Below are positions 14,055 to 41,407 of a DNA stretch of 41,407 bases, in pieces. Source of the DNA: Clostridiaceae bacterium (lineage in GTDB: Bacteria > Bacillota > Clostridia > DSM-8532). The stretch lies in assembly GCA_012522505.1 (NCBI GenBank), contig JAAYKJ010000034.1:1-41407 (forward strand), read 5' to 3'. Within the stretch, counting starts at the first letter, position 1. The number at the start of each line of letters is the position of its first letter. A program made the position numbers and the translations under genes. The notes under the pieces are model-generated. The model was not told where the DNA came from. It ran no database searches and was given only the letters and a program-made list of their open reading frames with translations.

Positions 14055-17000
14055 TTAGGGGGCAATATCTATAAACCTGACATTTCCGTATACAGTGTTT
14101 TCCTGGGAATTGTTGTAAAAACCAAATTTGCCGTCTTTGAAATCGCCATTTGCATTAAAGATCTCATTACTATGAATCCATACTGTTATATTGTTCTTTG
14201 TGTAACGTACCTGAAATTCGTACTCAGTATAATCTTCCCATCCCTTACCAGAACCATGTTTTGTACCAAGTATCTCGCATTTATTGGTTTCAGGCAGATG
14301 GAACCACAGATATTTTGAAAATTCTCCTAAACCTCCATGGTATGATGGTTGTGTTTTAAGTTCAGCAGTTATTCTCAAAAGTGTATAGCCTGCAGCTGCT
14401 TTTTTGTCGATATTCTCATCATACCAGTCATTCCTATCTCTTTGCTCTTTTTGTTTCCAATCAAATACAATAAAATCGTAATACTCAATATCGTCATTAT
14501 TCTCATCTGTTGGCTGCTGATAACCCAATACAAAGCCAAATAAGTCATCATCACTTTCTTGTTCAACCTTCATGGCTCCGGTTATCTCTTTATTAATACA
14601 ATTATCAGGGCTTACAAAAAAGCTTATGTATTTATTATCAGTTATTCTGACAGACTTGGCGCCGTTTTCTAAAGTCCATTTAGCAGTATGGCCATTTACG
14701 TCCCAGTCTTTCAAGTCGGCTACCCAACTTGCATAAAACGTGATGTTGCCGATGGAGCCTTTTGTGATCTTATTTACTTTGTTGCCACCGGTCTCAGAGT
14801 CGACCCATCCATCGAATATATAACCGGTCCTGGTAGCATCTGCCAGTGTAATGGTTTCAGATTCAATTGTGTAACTTGCCGGGTTACTTTCCGGGTTTTC
14901 ACCACCATCCAGATGATAGGTAATACTATAGGTGATCAGATTCCATTCTGCTTTATAGGTTGTATCTGCTGCGGGCATTGTGGGTGGCAATTCCGGCTTC
15001 CAACCACTGAAATTATAACCAATCCTCTCCACGACAGGGGCAGAAATAGCCTTGCCGTATACAACATCCGTCACTGTGTTTTGACCACCATTTTCAGGCA
15101 TGAAGACCAGTTTGTAGCTGTTTCGTGTGTAATAATATTCAATGACAGTACTCCCGTCGGCAGCTATGCTTTTTGTCTGTGTTTGCGGTGCAGTGAAACC
15201 TTCATAATTCTTTACACCTGGTGTAATGCTTGAATCTGTTGCACCAGTGAAATTCTCTGTTAAAACCAGAGTATAGTTGTTATTCAGATCTTCCAAATAA
15301 TGTTTCACGGTATATGGGGTGTTTCCTTCGGCTACCCAAACCGCTGTATAGGTTGTGTCGCCTGCAGGCATTTTTCCTGTAGGTTCAGGAGCCCATTCTT
15401 TAAAATTGTATCCGTCCTTAACCAAGCCGGTAGGCAGGGTTACTTCGTCATCATACTTAACAGTTTTAGTCAGATCCGTAAGGCCATTTTCATGCTTAAT
15501 CGTCAAGGTATAGCTATTACGGGGATAATAGTAATTAACAACAGTACTTCCACTACCATCAATCGTTACAATCTGTTTATTTGGTGAGGTAAAGCCGGCA
15601 TAATTCTTAACTTCCGGTGTTACTTCGATTCCTGCAGTACCTTTCAGTTTGTCGGTGTCAACCAAAACATAGGAACTGGCAGTGCCAAGAGAAACTTTCT
15701 TACCAAAAATTATTACATATTTTTCCTCTTCAAGACTCCTTTGATAATGGTTAACTGTATACGGTGTATCAGGCTTTCCTGCCCACTTGGCATACAAAAT
15801 CTGTGATGATGTAATGTTAACGGTAGTGTCTGCTTTTATTTGAGTTCCGAAGCCAACATTATCCACCTCGCTTGTATACCAACCAAGGAAAGTATAGCCC
15901 TGTCTTTCAGGGGTAGGCAGTGTACCATATTTACTTCCATATGTTACGGGAATGCTTGCCGGGTTAGTGCCTCCATTGGAATCAAAGGAGACCGTATAGG
16001 TATTTTTATTCCATTTTGCTGTATATTCTAAATTATTCCCAGGCATGGTTGTTGCAACTGTTTTGTCCCATCCGGCAAAAGTGTGCCCCGTCTTTGACAG
16101 TGCCGGCGGTTTAATGGTTGACCCGAATTTATAGGTTTGAACTATGCTGTTCCCATCCTTTTCCGACTTGAATGTTACTTCGTAACTGTCACGGTTATAT
16201 TTATATTCGACAACGGCGCTACCGTCCGGGGCAATAGTCACAGTCTTCTTGTCAGGAGAAGTGAAGCCTGTATAAGTCTTTACTGCCGGTGAAACATCAG
16301 TATCAGTGGTACCGGTTAGGTTCTGGGTCTCTTTCAGCGTGTATTTGTTACTGTTGGTGATGTCTTGCTGATAATGCTCCACCCTATATTTTGTGTTTGT
16401 GTTCGGAGTCCATTTCGCATAAAGCTTTATGTCGTTCCATCCCATTGTTGAGAACGTATAAGCTTGTTTCAATGCTGTATCGGAATACCACCCTGCAAAA
16501 GTGTATCCGGCTCTGGTGGGGTTTTTCGGAGCTGTTACTTTTTCATTGTACTTCTTTGTAATGCTATTGACAGTGCTACCACCATTGCTATCAAAAGAGA
16601 TTGTATAACCGTCTTTCAGGTCAGACCAAATTAACTTATATGTGCGCGAAATAGGAACGGACGAAAATGCAAGGGCTCCTTGCTTCCATATTATGGTCAT
16701 TTCCGCTTCAAGATATTTTGTATCTTCTGGAACATTTGCTGTTATTTTGCCATTTTTGAGAGTAAACTTTTTATCTGAGAGCTTAACCTCATAATCTCCG
16801 ATTTTATATGCCTTTGTAGAGTTTTCTCCCTCTCTGAGATCTAAATAAATCATGCTAAAAGCATCATTAGGGATGGCGCATGTCTTATTCTTGCTGCTAA
16901 ATACAATATCCCCGGCATCCTCGTAAGCAAAATCATAAACATAATATCTTGTTCCTGCTGTATGTATAAGCCATTCCTTCCCTATCAAATCTTTGCTGGA

Positions 17001-20000
17001 CTTAAACTTTCCCTTGACTGCCTGAAAAACTAAAGCCATATCGAAATATGAACCCAGCTCATAATAGAGTGCTCCGGATTTGGATGTATTATTGTTATTT
17101 TTATGTAGCTTTTCATAGAAGAAAAACCCGTATGCATTCATGTAAATTCCTGCTTCGGCTTCTAATCCAAGGCTGGCAACATCTTTAATAACGAGACTTA
17201 CTGTTAATTCAGGCTTGATTCCCGCCCGCAACCCAAGTCTTCCCATGACATAAAATTGGAAAGAGTACTCCTTCTTCATAAGATCAACAGAGCTGGCACC
17301 TGATTCTTCATCTAAAAGATAAGCCCAAAAGCTATATCTTGTAGCTTCCTTTGATTCATAATTACAGCCTATCGCAACATTGATATCGCCGGATACAACA
17401 AAGCTTACCACAAATTTTATTTGTATAGCCCCTTTTAGTAAGGTATAAGTTTTTTCAATAATCTCCTTGCTGAATATCTCAATAAAATCACTCTCGTTTT
17501 CCATCATATCGGTATATAATTGATAGAGATCCTGGACACCGGCAGTAATTTCATCTTCGCCTTTTTTATCTTTACCAAGTAAATCCTTGATCTTAGCAAC
17601 GATATCGATTGAGTTGACGTCGCCCTTTGTGTATACTAAAGCTTTAAAGCTGACGGCAGTGTAGCTATGGATGTCTATATCGGCCTTAAAAAAGACATCG
17701 GTCGGGATAACTTTCCACTTCCATTTAATCCAGGCATCATCTTTCATAGAAACCTTTACTTCTTCAATAAAATCTCCGGTTAGTTCAATATTAATAACAC
17801 TATCGTCATCAGTTTTAATTTCAATTGTTACAGAAAGTGAAACAACACATCTTACTCCCTCGTTAAAATTTTTAGGGCTTTTGTTTATTGATGCCTTCAC
17901 CTTGGGGCTTTTAATTTTTACTTTACTACTGCTTGCCATTAAGCGAAAATTACTTGGGCTCATATGGGAGCCATCATCCATAGTAATTCTAAGAGAATCC
18001 ATCCCTCCGTACGCATCTGCAATCTGTTGAAAGTCATCTGATGCAAGCGCCAAAGTAGTTAAATACGTGGCTGCCTTATCAACAAATCCGCTTGACATAA
18101 CCTGCTCTTCTATTTGTAATTCATATTCTTCAATTTTATCGTCATCAATTAGTTGGTCACCGATTAACTCCATTTCCGAATGATAGTTAAAGGAATCATA
18201 CATTTCTTCCAAGGTGATTAATTCAAATTGAACACTTACAGTAGTTCCGCTTTTTGCTGCCTCCGTTACCTTAGCATAGAGAATATCCTCGGTGGGCATG
18301 TCTTCATCAGTCATGTTTTCATTAAATATTTTCTCAAATTGTACAGTACTAAGTAACAGGAAATCACCTTTGTTAATTGTAGTTTCAGCACTAAGCCCGA
18401 TATCATCAAACTCTTTAAAATTGAGACTATATAATGAGGCCGTAAAGGAGCCGGTTTCGGTTTCCTCGTTAATGTCAAAGTTTGTAAGGGAATGTCCATT
18501 CCCAATATAGATTGGAAGTGATTTAGGTATAACAAGGATATCTTCCGCACTGGCACCGATATAGGAAACTGTCCTTCCGTCAATTTCTGTTACAGTTACA
18601 TAAGAGATTTTATCGTTTACAAGAATTTTACTATCTTTGTTTTGAACCTGACCAGGATTAACTCCACTATATATGCAAAGAGTATCCCCAATATCAAAGG
18701 GTAATGGTTCAGAACCGGTATATCTAAAACTGCCGATATCAGAATGGTTCGTTTCATTTCCTTCCTCAGACATTGTTATCAGAGGTACAGACAAATATGT
18801 TATATCGTTATTGTTTTGAACAATATCTTCTATATGACTATCGGGAATGTACACAATATCAGAATTAAACTCAATATTATATACTTCATCCTTTTTTATA
18901 GTAAAGGAACATATGCGAACATAATCCTCCTGATCGGCAAATGTAAGCCTTTCATCATCTAATAAGAGTTTATAGGATGCTCCCTCAATAAATCCATCGG
19001 TACCTTTAAGAGTGAATACCCCATTGCCGCCGGCAATTGTTAATACCGATGAATCTGAGCCGGTATTATCTTCAATACTGATACCGTTTTCCACATCAGT
19101 TACTGTCATGTTTTGATTTGATGCTTCTATGATAATCGTTAGATCCGGGTTCTGATCAATTAGCGCGAAAGAGTTATCCAGCTTTTCTTCGGCTATTTCC
19201 TCAACAATTAAATATTTAGCATATAGAGTTATATTTGAAGTTACAACACTGCCTTTTGTGAACTCATTCTCGTATAAACCCTCATCCTGATACCATCCGA
19301 GGAAGATTGCATTTTCTTTTATAGGGACAGGAAGGCTTGATATGGTATGACCACTTCTAACTCTTATTGGGTCTACTGTTGCCCCACCGTTGGAGTTAAA
19401 TGAAACAGTATAGTATGTATAATTCCTATCTGAATCAGATGGCGGGGTTGATGTAGGCACTGGAGTCTGAGTTGGTGTCGGAGATGGAGATAGTGATGGC
19501 AGTGGAGTAGGTGATGCTGTTGGTGTGAGTGATGGCGTGGGTGTCTGAGAGGAAAGAGCATTGTCTTCATGCCATTTTGTCACACCTTGATGGATTCTTG
19601 TACAAAACGTAGCAGCCGATGCTCTTTCAGCATTATCTTTAGGATTAAAGAATCCATTGTTATCACCCTTAAGAAATCCTGCTTTCCATAATTTCATTAC
19701 CGAATCAAGCGCCCACGGAGCAATATCAGAAATATCTGCAGGAGATTCAAAGTTATTGGAATCAGCACGATAATCTATGTCATAGGCGTCAAAAAAACGA
19801 ACTGCGAATACAGCCATTTGCTCACGGGTAACGATTCCATCCGGATCGAAGCGATTGTTTCCAACACCCGTTGTTACCCCTTTTTCAAGAGCCCATGTAA
19901 TGTAGGGGGCATAATATGCATTCTCATCTACGTCAATAAATGCAGTGCTTGTTGTATAGTCTTTCTGATTGATTCCGGCAATTCGTCCCAGCACGGTTAC

Positions 20001-20264
20001 AAACATGGAACGTGACATGGTTTCGTACGGTGAGAAAGAATCATCTCCCGTTCCGTTAAAAATTCCATTCTCAAATACATAAAGAATGGAATCATAGAAC
20101 CAATCCGATTCAGATATATCTTTAAATGGACTTGCTTTTTGAGATGTAGCTTCTGCGACTGTGGGATGTATTACCATATCCTGTACTTCTGCCAACGCAT
20201 TGACAGGAATCATAGTAATAACCATGCAGATCAAAAGAATTGTACTTAATAATCGCTTCATCAT
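14055..20264 (-). CDS. 2069-aa SLH-anchored surface protein with Flg_new and MucBP-like repeats
   Basis: The start has GGGGGGG upstream. A signal peptide (residues 1-26, cut near NALAE) is followed by three SLH motifs (about 47-88, 108-152, 173-215), which anchor proteins to secondary cell-wall polymer, and a Pro/Thr/Ser linker (241-278). An Flg_new/InlB-type repeat follows (about 285-351; VSFNSNGGATV ... FLGWYQD). A core of about 860 residues (about 352-1215) has no recognised family but is clearly paralogous to the gene at the right edge (shared QFYVMG.LGL, RYSFW and VYDFAYE motifs). Six more Flg_new repeats alternate with three MucBP-like units (about 1219-1847). The last 220 residues (FGFVLGYQ, VFDWKQKEQ, TVYGNVRF) resemble the thrombospondin C-terminal lectin-like domain. 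A role as an adhesin or S-layer-associated protein is inferred. No catalytic motif was seen. Confidence 0.9.
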   Translation of the reverse strand: MMKRLLSTILLICMVITMIPVNALAEVQDMVIHPTVAEATSQKASPFKDISESDWFYDSILYVFENGIFNGTGDDSFSPYETMSRSMFVTVLGRIAGINQKDYTTSTAFIDVDENAYYAPYITWALEKGVTTGVGNNRFDPDGIVTREQMAVFAVRFFDAYDIDYRADSNNFESPADISDIAPWALDSVMKLWKAGFLKGDNNGFFNPKDNAERASAATFCTRIHQGVTKWHEDNALSSQTPTPSLTPTASPTPLPSLSPSPTPTQTPVPTSTPPSDSDRNYTYYTVSFNSNGGATVDPIRVRSGHTISSLPVPIKENAIFLGWYQDEGLYENEFTKGSVVTSNITLYAKYLIVEEIAEEKLDNSFALIDQNPDLTIIIEASNQNMTVTDVENGISIEDNTGSDSSVLTIAGGNGVFTLKGTDGFIEGASYKLLLDDERLTFADQEDYVRICSFTIKKDEVYNIEFNSDIVYIPDSHIEDIVQNNNDITYLSVPLITMSEEGNETNHSDIGSFRYTGSEPLPFDIGDTLCIYSGVNPGQVQNKDSKILVNDKISYVTVTEIDGRTVSYIGASAEDILVIPKSLPIYIGNGHSLTNFDINEETETGSFTASLYSLNFKEFDDIGLSAETTINKGDFLLLSTVQFEKIFNENMTDEDMPTEDILYAKVTEAAKSGTTVSVQFELITLEEMYDSFNYHSEMELIGDQLIDDDKIEEYELQIEEQVMSSGFVDKAATYLTTLALASDDFQQIADAYGGMDSLRITMDDGSHMSPSNFRLMASSSKVKIKSPKVKASINKSPKNFNEGVRCVVSLSVTIEIKTDDDSVINIELTGDFIEEVKVSMKDDAWIKWKWKVIPTDVFFKADIDIHSYTAVSFKALVYTKGDVNSIDIVAKIKDLLGKDKKGEDEITAGVQDLYQLYTDMMENESDFIEIFSKEIIEKTYTLLKGAIQIKFVVSFVVSGDINVAIGCNYESKEATRYSFWAYLLDEESGASSVDLMKKEYSFQFYVMGRLGLRAGIKPELTVSLVIKDVASLGLEAEAGIYMNAYGFFFYEKLHKNNNNTSKSGALYYELGSYFDMALVFQAVKGKFKSSKDLIGKEWLIHTAGTRYYVYDFAYEDAGDIVFSSKNKTCAIPNDAFSMIYLDLREGENSTKAYKIGDYEVKLSDKKFTLKNGKITANVPEDTKYLEAEMTIIWKQGALAFSSVPISRTYKLIWSDLKDGYTISFDSNGGSTVNSITKKYNEKVTAPKNPTRAGYTFAGWYSDTALKQAYTFSTMGWNDIKLYAKWTPNTNTKYRVEHYQQDITNSNKYTLKETQNLTGTTDTDVSPAVKTYTGFTSPDKKTVTIAPDGSAVVEYKYNRDSYEVTFKSEKDGNSIVQTYKFGSTIKPPALSKTGHTFAGWDKTVATTMPGNNLEYTAKWNKNTYTVSFDSNGGTNPASIPVTYGSKYGTLPTPERQGYTFLGWYTSEVDNVGFGTQIKADTTVNITSSQILYAKWAGKPDTPYTVNHYQRSLEEEKYVIIFGKKVSLGTASSYVLVDTDKLKGTAGIEVTPEVKNYAGFTSPNKQIVTIDGSGSTVVNYYYPRNSYTLTIKHENGLTDLTKTVKYDDEVTLPTGLVKDGYNFKEWAPEPTGKMPAGDTTYTAVWVAEGNTPYTVKHYLEDLNNNYTLVLTENFTGATDSSITPGVKNYEGFTAPQTQTKSIAADGSTVIEYYYTRNSYKLVFMPENGGQNTVTDVVYGKAISAPVVERIGYNFSGWKPELPPTMPAADTTYKAEWNLITYSITYHLDGGENPESNPASYTIESETITLADATRTGYIFDGWVDSETGGNKVNKITKGSIGNITFYASWVADLKDWDVNGHTAKWTLENGAKSVRITDNKYISFFVSPDNCINKEITGAMKVEQESDDDLFGFVLGYQQPTDENNDDIEYYDFIVFDWKQKEQRDRNDWYDENIDKKAAAGYTLLRITAELKTQPSYHGGLGEFSKYLWFHLPETNKCEILGTKHGSGKGWEDYTEYEFQVRYTKNNITVWIHSNEIFNANGDFKDGKFGFYNNSQENTVYGNVRFIDIAP

Positions 20265-20681: not shown

Positions 20682-21812
20682 CTATGAAAGCCTTTCCTTA
20701 AAGTCTTCATACCCAAAGCTTCGTATCACAGATATGCTGCCATCCTGCTTTCGCAGCGCTATGGAGGGTAGACGCATACCATTAAAGGTATTATTTTTCA
20801 CCATGGTATAGATCGCCATATCCTCAAAGATTAACTTATCCCCTTCCTGCAAAGGCCGATCGAAGGAGTAATCCCCTATCACATCGCCAGCAAGGCAGGT
20901 AGCGCCCGCCAACCGGTAGGTATATGGTTTTTCTTTTGGCGCTCCGCTTTGCCACAGGGGCGGACGATAGGGCATTTCAATGACGTCTGGCATGTGGCAG
21001 GCCGCCGAGGCATCCAGCAAGGCTATATCTATACCATTATTCACAATGTCCAGCACCGAGGCCACCAAAAATCCCGCGCGATAGGCAATTGCCTCGCCCG
21101 GCTCCAGATAAACCTCTACCCCGTATTTTTCTTTAAATCGAAGGATGCAGTCAACCAGCGCGCAGCGGTCGTAACCTCTGCTGGTGATAAGATGTCCTCC
21201 GCCAAAATTCACCCACTTCATCTGCGAAATAAACTCGCCAAACTTTTCCTCAACCACCGCGAGTGTTTCGATCAGCGCGTCACTGTTTTGTTCACAAAGC
21301 GTGTGAAAGTGCAGCCCCTCAATGCCTTCGAGCAAATCGGGGCGAAAATTCTCACGGGTTACGCCAAGGCGCGAGCCGTCGGCACATGGGTCATAGATTC
21401 CGTGCGTCTGCGTTGAATGCTGGGGATTTATACGAATACCGCAGCTTTTTTCCGCAGCTATCGCCCTATTTCGATATTTCTCCCATTGAGAAAATGAGTT
21501 AAAAGAAATATGGTCGCAAAGTTTTAATATCTCATCAAACTCCTTTTCTACATACGCCGCAGAATAGATATGGGTTTCACCTCCCATTTCCTCACGGCCG
21601 AGTCTTGCCTCAAAGAGTCCGCTGGCAGTTGTACCTGCCAAATATCGGCCGATGAGCGGGTATACCGAAAACATAGAAAAGGCTTTTTGTGCGAGCAAAA
21701 TCTTGCAGCCAGCTTGCAAGGCAACCTGCTCCAAAATGTCGAGATTCTCCATAATGCGCCGCTCATCCACTACATAGCAGGGTGTTTCCACCGAATATAA
21801 ACTTCTTTCCAT
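20682..21812 (-). CDS. nspC: Carboxynorspermidine/carboxyspermidine decarboxylase
   Basis: This 376-residue protein is a PLP-dependent decarboxylase of the alanine-racemase (type III) fold. The PLP lysine is K43 in LLAQKAFSMF; further family marks are TASGLFEARLG, the HFHTLCEQNSD segment, the glycine-rich WVNFGGGHL phosphate-binding region, YLEPGEAIAY and the C-terminal AGATCLAGDVIGDY followed by FEDMAIYTMVKNNTFNG. It removes the carboxyl group from carboxynorspermidine or carboxyspermidine to yield norspermidine or spermidine; the sequence does not tell which. It is the last gene of the six-gene polyamine operon. Its ATG shares one base with the TGA of the dehydrogenase that makes its substrate, so the two are translationally coupled. 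Confidence 0.93.
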   Translation of the reverse strand: MERSLYSVETPCYVVDERRIMENLDILEQVALQAGCKILLAQKAFSMFSVYPLIGRYLAGTTASGLFEARLGREEMGGETHIYSAAYVEKEFDEILKLCDHISFNSFSQWEKYRNRAIAAEKSCGIRINPQHSTQTHGIYDPCADGSRLGVTRENFRPDLLEGIEGLHFHTLCEQNSDALIETLAVVEEKFGEFISQMKWVNFGGGHLITSRGYDRCALVDCILRFKEKYGVEVYLEPGEAIAYRAGFLVASVLDIVNNGIDIALLDASAACHMPDVIEMPYRPPLWQSGAPKEKPYTYRLAGATCLAGDVIGDYSFDRPLQEGDKLIFEDMAIYTMVKNNTFNGMRLPSIALRKQDGSISVIRSFGYEDFKERLS

Positions 21813-23014
21813 CAGTCCACCAACACGGGATTAAAGTCCTCGTTCCAAGGCAGACCCCATTTATTAAGAGCCTCCATAAAGGGGTCGGGGTCAAATTCTT
21901 CAACATTCCATACGCCAGGCTTGCTCCAAGTGCCGTTCATCACAAGCATCGCCCCAATCATTGCAGGCACGCCTGTAGTGTAGGAAATGGCCTGACTGCC
22001 CACCTCTTTGTAGCACTTTTGATGGTCGCATACATTATAAATGTAGTAAGTCTTTTTCTTGCCGTCCTTCACCCCCTGAAAAATACATCCGATATTTGTT
22101 TTACCGACGGTGCGCGGGCCGAGGCTGGCAGGATCGGGCAACACGGCTTTTAGAAATTGCAGCGGAACGATCTGTTGACCGTTAAATTCAATGGGCTCAA
22201 TGGAGGTCATGCCCACATTTTCCGAACACTTCAGGTGGGTAAGATAGCTTTGGCCAAAGGTCATAAAAAATCGAATTCTCTTGATGCCCTTGATGTTATT
22301 GGCAAGACTTTCAAGCTCTTCATGGTGAAGCAAGTACATATCCCTTTTGCCCACCCCGGCAAAATCATACTCTCGCTTGATTTCCATAGGCTTGGTTTCC
22401 ACCCAACGCCCGTTTTCCCAGTAACTTCCGTTGGCTGTTACCTCACGGATATTGATTTCCGGGTTAAAGTTGGTTGCAAACGGATACCCGTGGTCTCCGC
22501 CGTTGCAGTCGAGGATATCAATGTAGTGAATCTCGTCAAAGTGGTGCTTTTGCGCGTAGGCAGAGAACACGCCCGTTACTCCCGGATCAAAGCCGCTTCC
22601 CAGCAGCGCACAGATACCCGCCTCGCTAAACTTTTCCCGGTAGGCCCATTGCCACTTGTATTCAAACTTTGCGGTATCGGGTGGCTCGTAGTTGGCTGTA
22701 TCAACATAGTGGGTTTTGGTTGCCAGGCAGGCCTCCATTATAGTCAAATCCTGATAGGGCAGCGCCAGATTCAGCACCACATCAGGATTATATTTCTCAA
22801 TGAGCGCAACCATTTCATCAACGTTATCTGCGTCAACCTGTTCAGTGTATATTTGGGTTTTGGTTGTTCCCTCGAGCTTTGACTTGAGGGCATCGCATTT
22901 TGATTTTGTCCGGCTCGCTAGTATAATTTCTTCAAAGACCTCACTGCTTTGACAGCACTTGTGGATTGCCACGCTGGCGACGCCGCCGCAGCCTACAATT
23001 AAACATTTTCCCAT
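21812..23014 (-). CDS. Carboxynorspermidine/carboxyspermidine dehydrogenase (saccharopine dehydrogenase family)
   Basis: The 400-residue product has an N-terminal Rossmann fold starting KCLIVGCGGVASVAIHKC (glycines 8, 10, 11) and typical saccharopine-dehydrogenase-like segments: VLNLALPYQDLTIMEACL, THYVDTANYEPPD, LLGSGFDPGVTGVF and CNGGDHGYPFATNFNPEINI. Family knowledge: it condenses aspartate beta-semialdehyde with 1,3-diaminopropane or putrescine and reduces the imine with NADPH, giving carboxynorspermidine or carboxyspermidine. Putrescine is the likely substrate here because agmatinase is encoded immediately upstream and no diaminopropane-forming gene is visible. It begins 13 bases after the agmatinase gene and overlaps the decarboxylase gene by one base. 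Confidence 0.92.
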   Translation of the reverse strand: MGKCLIVGCGGVASVAIHKCCQSSEVFEEIILASRTKSKCDALKSKLEGTTKTQIYTEQVDADNVDEMVALIEKYNPDVVLNLALPYQDLTIMEACLATKTHYVDTANYEPPDTAKFEYKWQWAYREKFSEAGICALLGSGFDPGVTGVFSAYAQKHHFDEIHYIDILDCNGGDHGYPFATNFNPEINIREVTANGSYWENGRWVETKPMEIKREYDFAGVGKRDMYLLHHEELESLANNIKGIKRIRFFMTFGQSYLTHLKCSENVGMTSIEPIEFNGQQIVPLQFLKAVLPDPASLGPRTVGKTNIGCIFQGVKDGKKKTYYIYNVCDHQKCYKEVGSQAISYTTGVPAMIGAMLVMNGTWSKPGVWNVEEFDPDPFMEALNKWGLPWNEDFNPVLVD

Positions 23015-30020: not shown

Positions 30021-33000
30021 ATGAAAAAAGGGATTTCTATAATTTTAGCAATGTGCTTGATTATGGGTGTTTTTATGCCAGTAACAGGGAAGGCGACGGA
30101 TGACTTAGGCTACTATTCCTGGGAAGGAGAATGGGACAGCGACTGGGGAAATATAGTTATCACCCAGAAGGGGAATCAAATTTCGGGAACATATACACAT
30201 GATAACGGTAGGATCAGTGGTATGGTATCTGGAAATACAATCACCGGAACCTGGGCGGAATATCCTTCCTACTCTGCACCGAATGATGCAGGTGATATTA
30301 TTTTTGAAATGGCTTCTGACGGAAAGAGTTTTTCAGGGAAGTGGCGATTCGGAAACTCCGGTAGCTGGAGCGACTGGGGCGAAAGTGCCAGAAAAACTAC
30401 GGTATTGCCCGTCTCTAATGCTCAAAATGAACCGGACACCGCAGAGAACAGCATCGATGGCAACAACTCCGGTGAAAGCACAACAATCACCGTCACAGCA
30501 AGCAGCAACAGTATCGACACCGGCAATGATGATAGCAGCAGCAATAACGGTGGTGACACTTTCAGCGGAAATATATCCATCACCGTTACCAGTGGAAGCG
30601 ATCAGGACGACACCTCCGGAAGTGACACGGCAGGAGGTAACAATTACATATGCTCCGATTGGGCAAGAGGAGAGGTACAGAGCGCTGGGCTTATGGGCTT
30701 GATCCCCGACAGATTATACGGGGTTGATCTGCGGCAGAATATTACCCGGGCGGAGTTCGCCGCTCTAAGCGTAAGAGTGTATGAGAATATATCTGGCAAC
30801 CCTGCACCCTTTGCAAGCATGAACCCCTTCTACGACACCTCTGACCCGGAGGTGCTAAAGGCAGCGGCTCTGGGCATCACCAACGGCGTAGGCGGCGGCA
30901 GATTCGGATCAGACACACTGCTCACTCGTCAGCAGGCAGCCGTAATGCTCACCCGCAGCTATAAGGCCATCGTCCTGGAAGGCTGGACATTGGACACTGA
31001 CTCAGCCTATACCCTGCCCTATATGCGCCCGGCAACCTTCGCCGACAACGGTAAAATTGCTTCCTGGGCCAGTGACAGTGTTTATTTTATGGCTGCAAAT
31101 TCCATCCTCAACGGCGTGGGCGGAAATATGTTTTCGCCCGATAGCAACGCCACCCGGGAGCAATCCATCGTTATTGCCGTGCGTATGTGCCAAAAATTGA
31201 GCTCTGCTCCTTCTTACGCCGGCGGCATTAATAACGATGGCAGTACACCAACACCAGGTAACGACAACGGCACCTCTGCTAATGTCGGCGAAACCCCTTC
31301 AACTGGCAGGGTCATAGACAACGCTAGCGCCACCGGCACAGTAAACGGCGGCGGGTTAAGCATTTCATTCGACGGTGGTAACGGCGGCACGATGAGCGCT
31401 ACCTCCGAGGTTGGTGAAGAAGGTGCACTTACTAACTCCTATAGCATAGAGATGAGCAGCGTTCCCGTAAAACCTATGACCATCAGCTTGCAGATGACCG
31501 ATACACCCGCCACAGGTTCTAATTTGGAGACCTTTCTTATGCTGGCATTCCCTTATGTGGATGCGTCTGGTGGCAGCGGCTACATTGATGCACCTGTTCG
31601 TGCCACCGGCAACGGCGATACCATTAGCGCCACGATCGACCCGGCCGAGTATGGGGAGTATATGGAGCGGGTGTTTTCTGCCAGTGATTCCACCGGCACC
31701 ATGAAGGATAAGACACCCACCAGTTTTGACTTCCGCATTACCGGCACTCAGCTTGTGTTCTGGTACCAGACGGGTGGTAAATTCAAATGCTATGCTAACA
31801 GAGCATTGGCCGCCTACACTTTTGGCGAGGAAGAAGCCCAGCGTCTTATTACTGATCTTGAGGGACTGTACGCCACCTATGTGCAACTGTATCCCAAGGT
31901 CATCCGTAACGATTGGCCAATGAATGTCTACATCGCCAATATTGGTGACAATAACGGCACCTATGTGCGGGGCACCTGGAGCATTAACGGTGCCGAGATT
32001 CACCTCTCCCAAAAGTTGTTTGATAATGGTTATTCTAAGGAAACAAACACAAAAGTATACACAACCATGGCTCATGAGCTGTTTCATTTCATACAGAACA
32101 ACTACGTCTCAGCTTCTTTTGCCGCCGAATGGTTCGACGAGGCTACGGCCACATATATGGAATACAAGTACGGTAATGCTGGTATACCACTCATTTTCGG
32201 ACAATACTCCGATCGTATTTGGGAAGGCTTGCTGCCTTATTGGACGAATAAATGGTCTGAGGTTGGGCCTAATGGCTACGGGAGATTCATTTTTATAGAC
32301 TACCTCTGCCAGCAGAATCCGGAATTTATTAAGGAGGCCTATGAAATGGGTGGTCGTATAACGGCCTCGGGGTGGAATGATAACATCCGTATTGCCAGTG
32401 GCAAAAAATTTGAGCAGTTGGTGGGGGACTTCTTTGAAAGCTATATCACCACAAAACAGCTTGCCGCACCACTCCCCGCCGCCACCATTTATAAAAACCC
32501 GGCGATGTTTGATTACTGCGCTCAGATTTGGAACATTAACGCAGACACCATCGGCAGAAATTTCAACACATCGGTCAAAATAGGAGGCTATGGAGCCCAC
32601 TGTATTATTATGAAAGCAAATTACCTGCCCGCCGGTACCTCGTTGGAATTTACCGTTCCGTCGGACACCGATCTGCGCTCAATCGTCTTTGACGGTTCTG
32701 ATAAATATAAGGTTACCAAGGCCAAAGGCAGCACTCTGGATGTACCGTTAAAGGGCCATGAGAAACTTATGCTGTTAATTTGCGATACCAGTGGCAGCAG
32801 CGGTGTCCGCGATATCAGCGCTACGATTAAGGCTCCGGAAAGCTCCGGCTACAGCCTGAGTGAACTGTTTGATTCCACCATGGGCGCAGACAGCTATACA
32901 TTCATCTATCCCGGCGGTGACACCAGCCAGGGACCAATCGCTGTTACCAAAACCTACTGCGCCACCCACACCGATACAAAGGGCCAGAACAAAGATGTTA

Positions 33001-35226: not shown

Positions 35227-35768
35227 TTTTTTCCCTCACTTAATAGATAATTTGTATTTTTTCAAACCCACGATCATATAGTATTTTATTCCAATCACAC
35301 CACTTATATTATTGAACGAAAAAGTATTTATTTCAATCAATGATTGCCACCCCTGTCAATAACCATAGCTTTGCCCTTCTATTGTGTATCCAGCCCTTAC
35401 TTTCTCAGTTATTGCTAAATCTTGCCAATAGTATATCAAATATCTAGCTTCCGTACAATCGTTCATCGTTCTTTCCGAATTCTAGCGGTTTTGTAAGATT
35501 TTCTTTTCCATCGGCAAGAAAACTGAGAAAGTGGAACCGCTGCCCAACAAAGATGATACCTTTATATAACCGACCTCTGCCGCAAAAATCTCTTTTGACT
35601 AAAATAGCCCGACGCAAAATTGCCGTCTATGGCTTTGTCCAGTATCTTACTGGTTTTTTCAATTTTTTTTGACTCTTAGCCTATATAGAACAACCACAGC
35701 TGCTATTACCGCAATAATAACAATCCTGATACAGTCATAACTAAATAGTGGGAGTGTGACAATTTTAA
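35227..35768. other. Intergenic region with kinase relic
   Basis: It contains the histidine-kinase relic at 35482-35598. Near 35670-35720 a minus-strand frame ends in IRIVIIAVIAAVVVLYRLRV-KKN, a membrane segment with a basic end, without start or ribosome binding site. I see nothing else. Confidence 0.4.
35482..35598 (-). pseudogene. C-terminal relic of a sensor histidine kinase
   Basis: The frame reads SKEIFAAEVGYIKVSSLL then GSGSTFSVFLPMEKK and stops. That is the last strand and lid end of a HATPase_c domain (pattern EIV..HGGYI.V.S..G.GSTF...LP). A TAG cuts the frame upstream, and no histidine box or N box is found nearby. Confidence 0.65.
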
Positions 35769-35799
35769 AGCGGCATCTATCCGAAAGATAGATGCCGCT
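35769..35799 (-). terminator. Intrinsic terminator of right-edge giant gene
   Basis: A perfect 13-bp stem AGCGGCATCTATC/GATAGATGCCGCT with a 5-nt loop is followed on the minus strand by TTTAAAATT. It lies 9 bp after the stop of the 35809-36270 frame, so transcription of the giant gene appears to include that downstream segment. Confidence 0.75.
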
Positions 35800-35808
35800 G
35801 TCTTGATT

Positions 35809-36270
35809 TTAGTCATCAATTGTTACTGTAATGGTTTCGGTCCAGGTGTTATACCATTTACCCAAATACGGATCCTCTCCCGTGCTGGCTGAACGCTCAG
35901 GGAATGATAATGTTACTGTCAGTGTTATTTCCGTATCACCTTTTGCCTTCATTGCTGCATACAGGGCTTCTTTGTCAATTGAAAAGCTATTTACAGTGTA
36001 GTCCAGGCAATCACTGTATGCTTCATCTTCAGCGGTAATGCTCAGTGTCGGTGCATCTTCCCAGTCGTAGGCATTGTATGGACTAGTTACGAAATTCCCT
36101 GTAGTCCTATCAAAAATATTTGCATACTGGTCGATGACTAAGCCATCATAAGTAAATGTGTATTTTTCGGTTTCACCGCTGCTTAAAATTAAGTCATCAA
36201 TGATGTCCCCGAAGTTTCCTACATCCGTGATCCTACGCTCCATAGCAGCTGCGTTACCCTTCCAAACCAC
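35809..36270 (-). CDS. C-terminal segment of right-edge giant protein, separated by in-frame TAA
   Basis: The 153-residue frame begins at the GTG directly after the TAA of the giant gene, in the same register. No ribosome binding site precedes the GTG; an internal ATG (36242, MERRITDVGNFGDI) has a GGAAGGG at a long 13-base spacing. The product has no signal peptide and is beta-rich (GETEKYTFTYDGLVIDQYAN, APTLSITAEDEAY, DTEITLTVTLSFPE, ETITVTIDD), like the Ig-like ends of such surface proteins. It therefore looks like the true C-terminus of the giant protein, cut off by a nonsense codon; an independent gene is the less likely reading. Confidence 0.6.
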   Translation of the reverse strand: MVWKGNAAAMERRITDVGNFGDIIDDLILSSGETEKYTFTYDGLVIDQYANIFDRTTGNFVTSPYNAYDWEDAPTLSITAEDEAYSDCLDYTVNSFSIDKEALYAAMKAKGDTEITLTVTLSFPERSASTGEDPYLGKWYNTWTETITVTIDD

Positions 36271-39200
36271 TTATTTGTCTTCGAACCATCGTTCGACGGG
36301 AATTTCGTCACCGCCGACATAAAGTTTTTTAAACTGCAAGTTGTATAAAGCACTCAATACTGCAAAAGGCATAACATTGTCACAATGCCATCCAGCAGCA
36401 ATACCGGATTTTTCATAAACAAGTTCCACTGCCTGAATCATCCATGGAGCACGATAAATTGGTCCATCAAATCCATAAAAACCCCAGCTGCCTCTCTCAA
36501 AATCATCTCCAGAATTATCGAAATGCGTAAGCGCAGAAGCTGTACCGTCCAGGAAATGTAGTCTGCCGCTGATTTTGGAATTTGTTCCGGCATTATTAAT
36601 ATCACTGGTTTCTATGTATAACTCATAATTATAACCAAGCGTTTCTCTTTCAGGCAGACCCTCAACCTTTACTGTGCTGGTACTTCTGACAGCATTGCTT
36701 GTTTCAAAATAGTTTTCACCCTCCGAAACCCTGGCAAAGATGTAGTAGTCTCCGGCTTTCAGATTCATAAACACACGGGAATCCTGCCAACCGGATGTTG
36801 GAACAGTTTCACTTGTAGAAACCGCATACATCACAGTTCCGTCTCCGGGATAAGAATCCTTATGCAATTTGCCTGCCAGCAGATTTGCTTTGTAGGAACT
36901 TCCTGCAAGGCCGGCTTTAGCATCATCTATGGTACGGTTAATCTTGTTTATTGTCATCACATTTTCATAGAGCTTTTCAAAATAATCATAGTTTTCATCT
37001 TCTGCTTTTGTGATTTTTACATCATATACGCCTGCATTAACAGCGGTATCCAGCCACTCGTTGTCCAGAACCTGCCGTTTGTATTGTATAGTGAAGCTAA
37101 TTATATCAAAGCCGCTTCCATATACCGCCTGATATACTGCCTCATATACTGCCGGTTGATGCTGACCGTTGTAATCATATTTCAGGTCCTGGTTAAATTC
37201 TATCATCTCCTCATTGATCGATGGTTTTCCGCCCCACTGTGCATACAGAATGTGAGCGTTGGAAATTACAACCACCGTATCCCTGGTTATTTGTTGCCCT
37301 TCTGTCCGTTCTGTGAACCACCCTTTGAAATAGTAACCTGTCCGGGAAGGCGTCGGCAAATCGCCGTATTTCTGACCAAAGATGACAGTTTGGGTTTCCT
37401 CACCTTCCGGCAGGATTCCTTCATTTGCATCAAAGGTCACGGTATATTCCTTTCCTCTCCATTTTGCATGCAGGGTAATGTCCGCGTCCGGCATGAGAAT
37501 GGTAAAATCAAACGGTTGTGTCAATTCCGAATCACTATACCAACCTTCAAAGTAATATCCCGGTTTTACAGGATCCGCAGGTTTGCCAATCGCAGATCCT
37601 ACAGGGTATGAAACCTGAGAAATTTCACTGCCGCCGTTCGTGTTATAGGTTATGATACGGTTGACCAAAGGAGCTTCCTGCTCTTCACAAACTACTATAT
37701 ATGTAGTTGGACCTGATATAGGGGCGAATACAGGATAAATGCTCTTAACGATGGCATTCATTGCGTTTAATTCTTCATAGAAGAACTCGCTTGACGCAAC
37801 ATCACCTTTTCTCATTTTTACTTCAATAGGTTCAAGGTCAATACCTTCGAATTTGAATGTAACGGTGGCCGAATGATCCACATAGGCTGCGGTAAAGGTT
37901 GCTCCGTCTAAAATATCCATGGCAAAGGCCCTGCCGATTGGCTCATTAACATCTCTGAGGATTTCTTTGTCACCACTGTCTTTGGCAACAACCTTCAGGA
38001 AGGCGGTGTAGTTTTTCTTCTCGTCATCAATGGTTCCGGTCTCTGCAAGTGAGCTAAGATCAAAGGCTTCTCCGAATTTTGCGGTAAATTGTCTGTTTCC
38101 CTTGGTGCCGTCGGGTTTTTCTACATCCTTCACCGTTAAGCTATAGGTTCTTGGTGTTATGTCAAAATAATAGGCAGTATCGCGCAAAATGGTTAAGCCT
38201 TCTGTCTGTTGATCCTCATATCCGTTGATTGCACTGTATTTCAGGTTGCCATATGCGCTTTCATAGCTGTCCACGCCTAAGATGGCTTTGATCTCATCTT
38301 CTGCTGGCAAGTCAAACTGCGAATTCTTTATTACACGCTGGCTCCATATCGTGGAGTATCCGTCCTTTACGTTTCCAGCACGAACGCTGGCTGTAAATCG
38401 TTCCTTTAATTCCTCTGTTGACAGGTTTGTCCAGACAAGAGGGATCGTAACCTTAATGTCATAATGACTGAAGGCAAGCTTGTCCGATTTCCATGTAAGC
38501 GTTAAATCGCCTTTTATGTATTGAACTCCCTCTGGAATGGTTACCGATATTTCGCCGGTATCCTTATTAAATGCAAAATTACTGTTTGACAGGGTGTAAT
38601 TAAACTTGTTCAGATCATAGATTGTCTGCTCAATATCGCCCTCGCAAAGATCAATATATTCCATTTGCCGGTAAACTTCAGGCAAAATCATAGTTATACC
38701 ATTTGCGCTGTTATTGTCATGATCCCTTACAAGAAGAACTTCATTTTCGGCTATTTCATAAGCAAAATCATATACATTGTTTCTTTCGCCTGCTGTAAGC
38801 AATGGCCACTTCTTATCCAGAAGCGTTGGCTCGTATTTGAACAAATCATTGAATGCCTGAGCCTTAAAGGTCATTTCCAGATACATTCCAAATTCCAGGT
38901 AGAGTGCACCCATTATCCTCTCATCGTAATTCCAGGTGGTGGTGTTTGCTGGCCTTAACCTCGTGTACTCATAGATAAAGTAACCCCATGTCTCAACGTA
39001 TGGACCAAACTCTGCTGTGAGACCAATACTGCCTATCTTTGTCGATATAACACCTACCGCAATTTCAGCCTCAACGCCCATCTTCAGTCCAAGTTGCCCC
39101 ATGACGTAGAATTGGAAGGCAAATTTTTCGTCAAGAAGATCCATTTCGGAGCTGCCGCTGTTTTTTGATATGATATCAAACCAGAAGGAATAGCGTTTGC

Positions 39201-41407
39201 CAATAACATATTCCATATTGGCGCCCATTACGATGTTTACATTGGCCTTAATAACAAAGTCTGCACTGATGCGGATTGCGAAAACACTGATGTAGAAGTT
39301 TGTTTTGAATATTTCTTTATTCAGAATTTCTATCCAGTCGCTTTCATTTTCCAGCATCTCTGAATAGCGTTCCATCAGATTGCGAACTCCTGCGTCAAGT
39401 TCAGTCTCGCTGGTGAGATCCAAAAGCTCCATCAGCTCCTGAGTCGCGTTCAGTTCTCCCAATGTGTCAAGCAATCCTTCGTATTCGTTCTTATTCGTGA
39501 CATCGGAAGGGATAGCTGCCCAAAGGTTCTCCAAGTCTTCTTTATAACCCCGAATCTTTTCGGCAGTTTCTTTGGCTTCGGTAATTTTGTCTTTTATTTC
39601 TTCAATTTGCTCAATCGTTTCCTTATATTTACCGTTCTTGATTCCCTTTAATTTTTTCCACAGCGAATCTTCTTCCTTCTCTACTGTATACATTTTAACG
39701 TCTACAGAAATAGCCGAATAGTTTTTGATATCTATCGAAGTTCGGAAAGTCAACTCATTAAATTTGGGAACGATAATAATCCATGTAACATCAGCATGAG
39801 CTCTTGCAGTAATATCAATTGATATCTCTTCTGCAAAGACAGCGGACAGAACAATCTTCAGTTCACCTTCATCGCCGATATCAACGGTGAATTCTGCTTC
39901 GATGCCAACTGCAAGTCGAATACCCTTGTCGAAATATTTTGAACTTCTGTCAAGCTCAACTTTAACTTCTACATCATCGGATAATTCAATGCTTTTGCCG
40001 ATTCCCATAAGCTGTAGTTTTTCGGAAGAAAGAGGAGCACCGTTCTCGTCTGTCACAGAGAAATCAGTTAACCCCGAAAGGGTTTTAAATCCATCTGTTT
40101 GAGTTGACATATGAGCAAGGTATATGGCTGCTTCCTCAGCGAACCCACTATCTCGAACCTGTCGCTCAATTTTTTCTATGAGAGCTTGTGTATCCACCTC
40201 TTCCAGAAGCTGATCACCTTCCGGTGTCTGCTGCAGGAAAGTGTCCATGGTTTGTTCAATCTCTTCTTTTGTCGTCCTGTTATAGTAAATAGTGTCCCCT
40301 TCAACTTTTGTCACAACACCATAGTAAACCTCGGATTCCTTGGTAAGGTTTGCGAATTCACCCGTATAGAATACCAGGAAATCGCCTTTTTCCACTTCCG
40401 GGTCTTCATTGAGATTCATCGCAACCCGTGCTTCATTATCAACATCTGTTGCCTGAACCGTACCTGCTTCGCCGTTTGGTAATTCTGCCACTTTAAACGG
40501 AATCGTATCCGGCATAAAAATTATTTTTTCTGCGTCGGATTCATCAAGACTTCTGAAGGTTACAGCATTCCCTTCTACTTTAACAACTTCGACATATGCT
40601 TCCGCATCACCGGTATAATTGTTGTTTACATAGTCGCGTTCGTAGGGAGGAGTATTTTCATAAATGCAGAGAATATCATTTGCATTAAGTGAACCGGCAC
40701 TATCATAGTCAAATGTTCCGGTTATTTTCTCGGAGGTTTCACTATTCAGCAGTTCGGGCCTAAGCACGTCAACCGGATCATTACTGCCAATTTTATATGA
40801 GATTTCGTCCGTATCCTGAATATAGATGATGTCATCGTTCAATACGAGATTGTACACTTCATCTTTTTCAATATTGAAGTTTGCTGTACGAACCGATTCA
40901 GCCTTACCGTCAAATATGTATCCTTCGCCAAGGGTGAGTCTATAACTGGAACCCTCACGGAAACCGCCTTTTGCCTTCACAGTAAAGGTAGCGTTTCCAT
41001 TGTCCGTAATATCGAGCTCTACCGGATCTGTTCCATCCATAACGGTCAGTACTGTGCTTTCATAAACGTCTCCTGCATTATCACTTATTTTCTGAATCTC
41101 AAAACTAAGGTTTGGAGATTGGTCTAACAATGAGAAAGAAGTGATACTCAGCTCTTCTTTTACTATCTCCTCATATTTCGCATAAACAGTCAAATCCGAA
41201 GTCACAGGATCATCTGCATAAAACGGTTTTGTGTATTCCATGTCGGAAAACCATCCGGTGAATATATAACCGTCTTTTGAAGTTTTACTGTCAGGAGGCG
41301 TCTTTGATAAAGGTTCTCCTGCTTTTACAGTATAGCTCTGAACCCGCCTGTCTCTGTCCATAAATACTACTCTATATGTGACTGTGTCACTGTCCGGATC
41401 GTCATCA
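36271..41407 (-). CDS. Giant surface protein, paralogue of the 2069-aa SLH protein; N-terminus beyond window
   Basis: The frame is open to the right edge; ATG 41361 lies inside an Flg_new repeat (TYRVVFMDRDRRVQSY before YIFTGWFSD), so the true start is outside. Order: the Flg_new repeat; a core of about 1000 residues paralogous to the 14055-20264 protein (shared LLDQSPNLS/LIDQNPDLT, NESDWIEI, RYSFWFDI, FQFYVMGQLGLKMGVE, VYDFAYE), with a coiled-coil insertion (about 39690-39540) absent from the paralogue; two further Flg_new repeats (about 37640-37240); an MBG/YDG-like domain (about 37200-36980); and a PLAT/LH2-like domain (YELYIETSDINNAGTNSKIS, FERGSWGFYGF, GWHCDNV). It stops at TAA 36273-36271, but the frame continues coherently afterwards. 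Export and SLH anchoring are expected by analogy only. Confidence 0.88.
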   Translation of the reverse strand, partial: DDDPDSDTVTYRVVFMDRDRRVQSYTVKAGEPLSKTPPDSKTSKDGYIFTGWFSDMEYTKPFYADDPVTSDLTVYAKYEEIVKEELSITSFSLLDQSPNLSFEIQKISDNAGDVYESTVLTVMDGTDPVELDITDNGNATFTVKAKGGFREGSSYRLTLGEGYIFDGKAESVRTANFNIEKDEVYNLVLNDDIIYIQDTDEISYKIGSNDPVDVLRPELLNSETSEKITGTFDYDSAGSLNANDILCIYENTPPYERDYVNNNYTGDAEAYVEVVKVEGNAVTFRSLDESDAEKIIFMPDTIPFKVAELPNGEAGTVQATDVDNEARVAMNLNEDPEVEKGDFLVFYTGEFANLTKESEVYYGVVTKVEGDTIYYNRTTKEEIEQTMDTFLQQTPEGDQLLEEVDTQALIEKIERQVRDSGFAEEAAIYLAHMSTQTDGFKTLSGLTDFSVTDENGAPLSSEKLQLMGIGKSIELSDDVEVKVELDRSSKYFDKGIRLAVGIEAEFTVDIGDEGELKIVLSAVFAEEISIDITARAHADVTWIIIVPKFNELTFRTSIDIKNYSAISVDVKMYTVEKEEDSLWKKLKGIKNGKYKETIEQIEEIKDKITEAKETAEKIRGYKEDLENLWAAIPSDVTNKNEYEGLLDTLGELNATQELMELLDLTSETELDAGVRNLMERYSEMLENESDWIEILNKEIFKTNFYISVFAIRISADFVIKANVNIVMGANMEYVIGKRYSFWFDIISKNSGSSEMDLLDEKFAFQFYVMGQLGLKMGVEAEIAVGVISTKIGSIGLTAEFGPYVETWGYFIYEYTRLRPANTTTWNYDERIMGALYLEFGMYLEMTFKAQAFNDLFKYEPTLLDKKWPLLTAGERNNVYDFAYEIAENEVLLVRDHDNNSANGITMILPEVYRQMEYIDLCEGDIEQTIYDLNKFNYTLSNSNFAFNKDTGEISVTIPEGVQYIKGDLTLTWKSDKLAFSHYDIKVTIPLVWTNLSTEELKERFTASVRAGNVKDGYSTIWSQRVIKNSQFDLPAEDEIKAILGVDSYESAYGNLKYSAINGYEDQQTEGLTILRDTAYYFDITPRTYSLTVKDVEKPDGTKGNRQFTAKFGEAFDLSSLAETGTIDDEKKNYTAFLKVVAKDSGDKEILRDVNEPIGRAFAMDILDGATFTAAYVDHSATVTFKFEGIDLEPIEVKMRKGDVASSEFFYEELNAMNAIVKSIYPVFAPISGPTTYIVVCEEQEAPLVNRIITYNTNGGSEISQVSYPVGSAIGKPADPVKPGYYFEGWYSDSELTQPFDFTILMPDADITLHAKWRGKEYTVTFDANEGILPEGEETQTVIFGQKYGDLPTPSRTGYYFKGWFTERTEGQQITRDTVVVISNAHILYAQWGGKPSINEEMIEFNQDLKYDYNGQHQPAVYEAVYQAVYGSGFDIISFTIQYKRQVLDNEWLDTAVNAGVYDVKITKAEDENYDYFEKLYENVMTINKINRTIDDAKAGLAGSSYKANLLAGKLHKDSYPGDGTVMYAVSTSETVPTSGWQDSRVFMNLKAGDYYIFARVSEGENYFETSNAVRSTSTVKVEGLPERETLGYNYELYIETSDINNAGTNSKISGRLHFLDGTASALTHFDNSGDDFERGSWGFYGFDGPIYRAPWMIQAVELVYEKSGIAAGWHCDNVMPFAVLSALYNLQFKKLYVGGDEIPVERWFEDK

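Follow-up and report, generated by a model that had tools for sequence, protein, structure and literature searches.

A nonsense codon interrupts a giant SLH-type surface-protein gene ahead of a conserved C-terminal segment in the assembly of a Clostridiaceae bacterium

The window analysed here is the whole 41,407-nucleotide contig JAAYKJ010000034.1 from the Clostridiaceae bacterium assembly GCA_012522505.1. At its right edge, the minus strand carries a 1711-codon reading frame that runs from 41406 to 36274, is open at the contig edge and has the C-terminus ...VERWFEDK. An in-frame TAA follows directly, after which the same register stays open for 153 residues up to a second stop; the arrangement described originally, for which no strand was named, is confirmed and lies on the minus strand. 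The features at the locus are:

36274..41406, minus strand: upstream part of the giant surface-protein gene, 1711 codons, with its 5′ end beyond the contig edge
37462..37653, minus strand: Flg_new (Listeria-Bacteroides repeat, PF09479), the best of three stretches, E 3.1e-46 for the protein
36373..36627, minus strand: PLAT/LH2-like domain (PF01477), ending shortly ahead of the stop, Pfam E 0.0077, 17.4 bits
36273-36271, minus strand: in-frame TAA interrupting the gene; none of the 7 other units combining a PLAT part with the tail has it
36270-35812, minus strand: 153-codon C-terminal segment (the tail), in the register of the giant frame and the conserved partner of the PLAT-like domain
35811-35809, minus strand: TAA that truly ends the gene, in the position where the orthologues L010 and G079 also end
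35799-35769, minus strand: perfect 13-bp stem after the true end, starting 9 nt past the TAA, MFE −23.4 kcal/mol, z −6.8

The 153-codon continuation is not a product of chance, because 14 of 18 comparable minus-strand open stretches (at least 110 codons) stay open in frame for only 2–49 codons past their stops. The remaining four continue for 75, 153 (this gene), 247 and 282 codons. The 247-codon case (stop at 32109) and a plus-strand case of 242 codons (21755-22153) each face a long ORF on the opposite strand, and the 282-codon case is the adjoining split flavodoxin-like gene. The tail piece has no start signals of its own, with no close Shine–Dalgarno sequence and, by eye, no signal sequence in its translation. 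The claim that no ribosome binding site serves the tail is nearly right: a GGAAGGG does exist, but it stands 13 nt ahead of an in-frame ATG (36243-36241), a spacing too long for a normal site, and the corresponding methionine is an internal residue in L010 and G079. Similarly, of the perfect terminator predicted within 10 bp of the second stop, the perfect stem stands, but the T tract on the coding strand is weak (TTAAAATT), and a terminator scan calls the stem for the plus strand only.

Homologues decide between one gene and two. A profile whose rows include L010 and G001 was searched against 391 genomes of the class and matched in 12 of them, at 15 places. Six places span the junction, namely the window with its one TAA and G079, G024, G040, G078 and G058 without a stop; the other nine are weaker, cover the PLAT part only and are uninformative on the junction. 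G001, from the same genus as the window, contributes a further continuous, distant unit. In a joint alignment, all seven other PLAT-plus-tail units (L010, G001, G079, G024, G040, G078 and G058) are continuous at the junction, the intact 2090-residue orthologue G079 among them, and no homologue ending at FEDK with a separate gene downstream was seen among these seven. Since these relatives run through the junction without a stop, and L010 and G079 end at the second stop of the window, our sequence comparison reveals a single gene that a nonsense codon divides into two pieces and that truly ends at 35809; a separate downstream gene is ruled out. The continuous homologues also support the original ranking, which put a nonsense mutation or sequencing error ahead of readthrough and phase variation.

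The closest orthologue is L010 (DUMS01000015.1, a Tissierellia bacterium MAG), one relative confirmed by genome-contig scan. Its junction is free of stops, the stretch from WF to VVW enclosing nine residues as against three plus the stop in the window, and its gene end coincides with the second stop of the window and is followed at the same place by the same stem core. L010 carries a TAA of its own, at L010:1290-1292, inside a Listeria-Bacteroides-type repeat (G079 residue ~1573). The orthologue G079 is complete, with 2090 codons and no stop, and contains three SLH domains, Flg_new repeats, a PLAT domain near the C-terminus and the tail. A tblastn comparison of the window with G079 gives 58.7% identity over 1866 alignment positions in one HSP that runs through the stop, which falls at G079 residue 1948. 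A subtilase gene follows the G079 orthologue; the subtilase frame downstream of L010 has 137 codons, versus 333 in G079.

The window protein lacks its first ~250 residues owing to the contig end. A 263-codon open N-terminus at C76:2950-3738 shares 56% identity with residues 1-241 of G079, its SLH region, and reaches the edge of this 3740-base contig in a proline/glutamate/lysine-rich repeat. From these sequences we infer that the C76 SLH start is probably the missing 5′ end of the interrupted gene, with C76 joined to C171. The window also encodes a paralogue at 14055-20264, 32% identical, with SLH and Flg_new domains.

The PLAT part and the tail are both conserved. The tail is 61% identical to that of L010, 56% to that of G079 and 21–35% to those of the five other units, and it is at least as conserved as the preceding PLAT part, for which the corresponding values are 51% (L010) and 42% (G079). 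The PLAT match of the window lies under the Pfam cut-off of 23 bits, whereas L010 (29.7 bits) and G079 (29.2 bits) score over it and the G001 unit (21.9 bits) falls about 1 bit short; the PLAT membership of the window copy rests on homology to its orthologues. In the tail, Pfam finds nothing up to an E of 1, and no Pfam enzyme domain reaches its cut-off in the window, L010 or G079 proteins. An AlphaFold model of the L010 PLAT-plus-tail unit is too poor (mean pLDDT 42.6) to bear out the beta-rich character suggested for the tail. Searched as a single sequence, the tail finds no match in the 31 other genomes of the window's family; searched as a profile, it matches one of 32 other genomes of the order, which is the G001 unit. 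No tail relatives were found in plasmids, phages or viral contigs, and our literature search found nothing on this gene or on any pairing among PLAT domains, S-layer homology and InlB B-repeats. The PLAT-plus-tail unit is C-terminal in the three orthologues, unlike in five distant units (L070, L071, L072, L073 and L074), all of which place it directly behind the signal-like N-terminus of other giant ORFs.

The state of the tail bears on the age of the stop. Among the 71 tail sites at which L010 and G079 agree, the window alone differs at 8; this is not higher than the 25 of 251 upstream of the stop of L010, and it is lower than the 44 of 188 just before the stop of the window (p = 0.036). Because the tail is conserved with so few window-only residues, the stop is recent relative to the orthologue splits, and these alignments place no change in evolution at the stop itself. 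Window-only base changes are spread over the three codon positions as 9:9:11 in the tail, 42:42:49 in the preceding 358 aligned codons and 17:18:64 further upstream, a comparison that is weak as evidence since third positions are probably near saturation. The tail does not differ in this spread from the preceding 358 codons (p = 1) and does differ from the upstream part (p = 0.017), and the 358 codons before the stop are flatter than the upstream part (Fisher p 3.6e-5); L010 and G079 have no such shift (p 0.54 to 1). The whole C-terminal quarter may therefore be evolving loosely in the lineage of the window, as far as such base counts can tell.

Taken together, we consider it more likely than not that the TAA arose by a genuine, recent mutation in a surface gene that is dispensable or decaying. 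The intact product would be a giant surface protein of the SLH type that combines Listeria-Bacteroides repeats with a PLAT/LH2 domain and closes with the conserved C-terminal segment. In the gene as sequenced, the nonsense codon would end translation just past the PLAT-like domain, leaving a product 153 residues shorter of ~2,100. The shortened protein would keep its presumed SLH anchor, the repeats and the PLAT-like part and lose the tail; such a protein would presumably still fold and stay anchored.

The strongest competing explanation, which we regard as a possible but less probable one, is that the TAA stems from faulty assembly or base calling, or from a minority allele that entered the consensus, and that the gene is uninterrupted in living cells. 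The assembly, which is probably a MAG, is fragmented into 276 contigs, and Cooley and Wright 2024 (PMC11017572) show that assembly artefacts account for many pseudogenes with internal stops. Furthermore, other frames are broken in the same genome. An internal TAG lies in an otherwise normal-looking ABC transporter ATPase (L089, G000:C164:17836-18309), and a second one, at L088:1674-1676 on C149, follows a GGAGG site within what looks like the signal peptide of a different SLH gene. On C76 (L085), the frame at 926-2193, immediately ahead of the SLH N-terminus, is broken by a frameshift; by eye from its translation, we take it to be tyrosyl-tRNA synthetase.

The gene next to the interrupted one is broken as well. 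An in-frame TGA at 34884-34882 divides a flavodoxin/FMN-reductase-like gene (35226-34033, minus strand) whose Pfam matches are weak and below the cut-off; this TGA counts towards an error-prone assembly and towards real decay alike. Its N-terminal half has matches in 125 of the 391 class genomes, its own genome included. Among the matches listed, the best 13 from elsewhere end at query residue 112–113 of 114 and sit in frames of 167–404 codons, indicating that the flavodoxin-like relatives continue past the split. Between the stem and this gene, 35300-35800 on the minus strand holds no long ORF and by eye resembles the end of a histidine kinase; the HATPase_c profile has no match there.

Against an error, internal stops are rare in conserved families of this genome: one of the 75 matches to ABC_tran (9,808 codons) holds a stop and none of the 48 to HATPase_c (4,976 codons) does, or one in 123 overall. 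The L010 genome has none in 64 ABC_tran matches (9,310 codons). At such background rates, the chance of a random stop is ~12–17% for the window gene and 5–10% for the L010 gene, figures that belong to a post hoc argument, that draw on ABC genes under stronger selection and that leave out the C149 TAG, whose inclusion would raise the rate. In addition, no base run longer than three lies at the TAA codon, and L010, a separate MAG, also has a TAA in the same gene. Because both the window and the L010 orthologues carry stops despite the rare background, gene-specific decay is favoured over random error, and we prefer, by a modest margin, a real mutation to a consensus error.

A real stop might also be functional, the shorter protein being favoured or tolerated as a stable variant, for instance with altered binding or with escape from phages or predators. 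Consistent with this, the stop stands just past the PLAT-like domain, of the three orthologues found, two contain a single TAA, each in its own position, and the flat codon-position spread in the 358 codons before the stop is a sign that selection on the C-terminal quarter is relaxed or diversifying. However, the stop of L010, unlike that of the window, would remove the PLAT domain too, so that the two truncations disagree; the tail itself has not decayed, and the known orthologues number only three. We therefore regard functional truncation as unlikely. Still less probable is its extension across lineages, in which repeated independent truncation would be adaptive and shedding of the PLAT-plus-tail module would create a heritable variant of the cell surface, in contrast to simple death of the gene.

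Programmed or leaky readthrough of the stop, yielding a minor full-length form, is highly improbable. Conservation of the tail would fit such a form, and the G that follows the TAA lowers termination accuracy in the E. coli measurements reported in PMC11126739; the TAA itself, however, is the most accurate stop in those same measurements, with reporter means of 0.01–0.05% of wild-type fluorescence. A readthrough mechanism could also draw on RNA structure, since the 120 nt of RNA after the TAA (36151-36270, minus strand) fold better than their shuffles (z −2.7, 200 shuffles, to −3.2), a level that none of 92 tiled windows of the gene reaches at z −2.7. By comparison, L010 lacks a similar RNA structure both at the equivalent place (z +0.65) and after its own TAA (z +0.15), and no homologue keeps a stop at this junction. 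We treat the structured RNA after the stop as an oddity. Rfam has no match in the window at gathering scores. No stop-reading anticodon occurs among 41 tRNA matches (40 of them called by ARAGORN, the exception being C115:31-103), a set that lacks some isotypes such as Lys and Ile. A recoded stop or suppressor tRNA was likewise rejected on this incomplete tRNA set. Recoding of TAG was also discarded: of three TAG-flagged SLH matches, those on C74 and C200 are natural gene ends and that on C149 is internal, and the internal TAGs of the genome are two (the C149 SLH gene and the C164 ABC ATPase). A phase-variable switch that toggles the tail by inversion or slippage is the least credible reading of all, since the 14-nt inverted repeat flanking the stop (36086-36099 / 36298-36311, 93%) is at chance level in the gene (one found; shuffle mean 0.71; 34 of 100 shuffles reach it), the flipped segment would carry three stops in the gene frame and no repeat unit lies at the TAA codon. 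The TAA in this surface-protein gene looks like a nonsense codon of the ordinary sort, or like an error, rather than a case of special decoding.

Annotations should treat the two ORFs as a single interrupted gene instead of listing a giant protein and a small hypothetical gene. Our comparison further reveals a conserved pair, a PLAT domain and a segment of ~150 residues that matches no Pfam model, and this pair turns up repeatedly among giant surface proteins of the class. Should the repeated nonsense codons prove real, the gene would be a candidate for losing a surface module often.

Among known systems, the closest are SLH-type giant surface proteins with Flg_new (PF09479) repeats. The intact G079 orthologue has the same domains in the same order, and the window copy differs from such proteins by the nonsense codon 153 codons before its natural end. 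With PLAT/LH2 proteins (PF01477), the likeness lies in the domain itself: among the matches listed, the profile matches PLAT regions of PDB chains such as those of lipoxygenases and clostridial phospholipase C. The difference is that the proteins described here have no enzyme domain above the Pfam cut-off and carry instead the conserved Pfam-less segment after PLAT. As in the nonsense-interrupted genes of draft assemblies that Cooley and Wright 2024 (PMC11017572) describe, a single internal stop breaks a frame that is otherwise open and conserved, and the only additional feature here is the second, independent stop in an orthologue.
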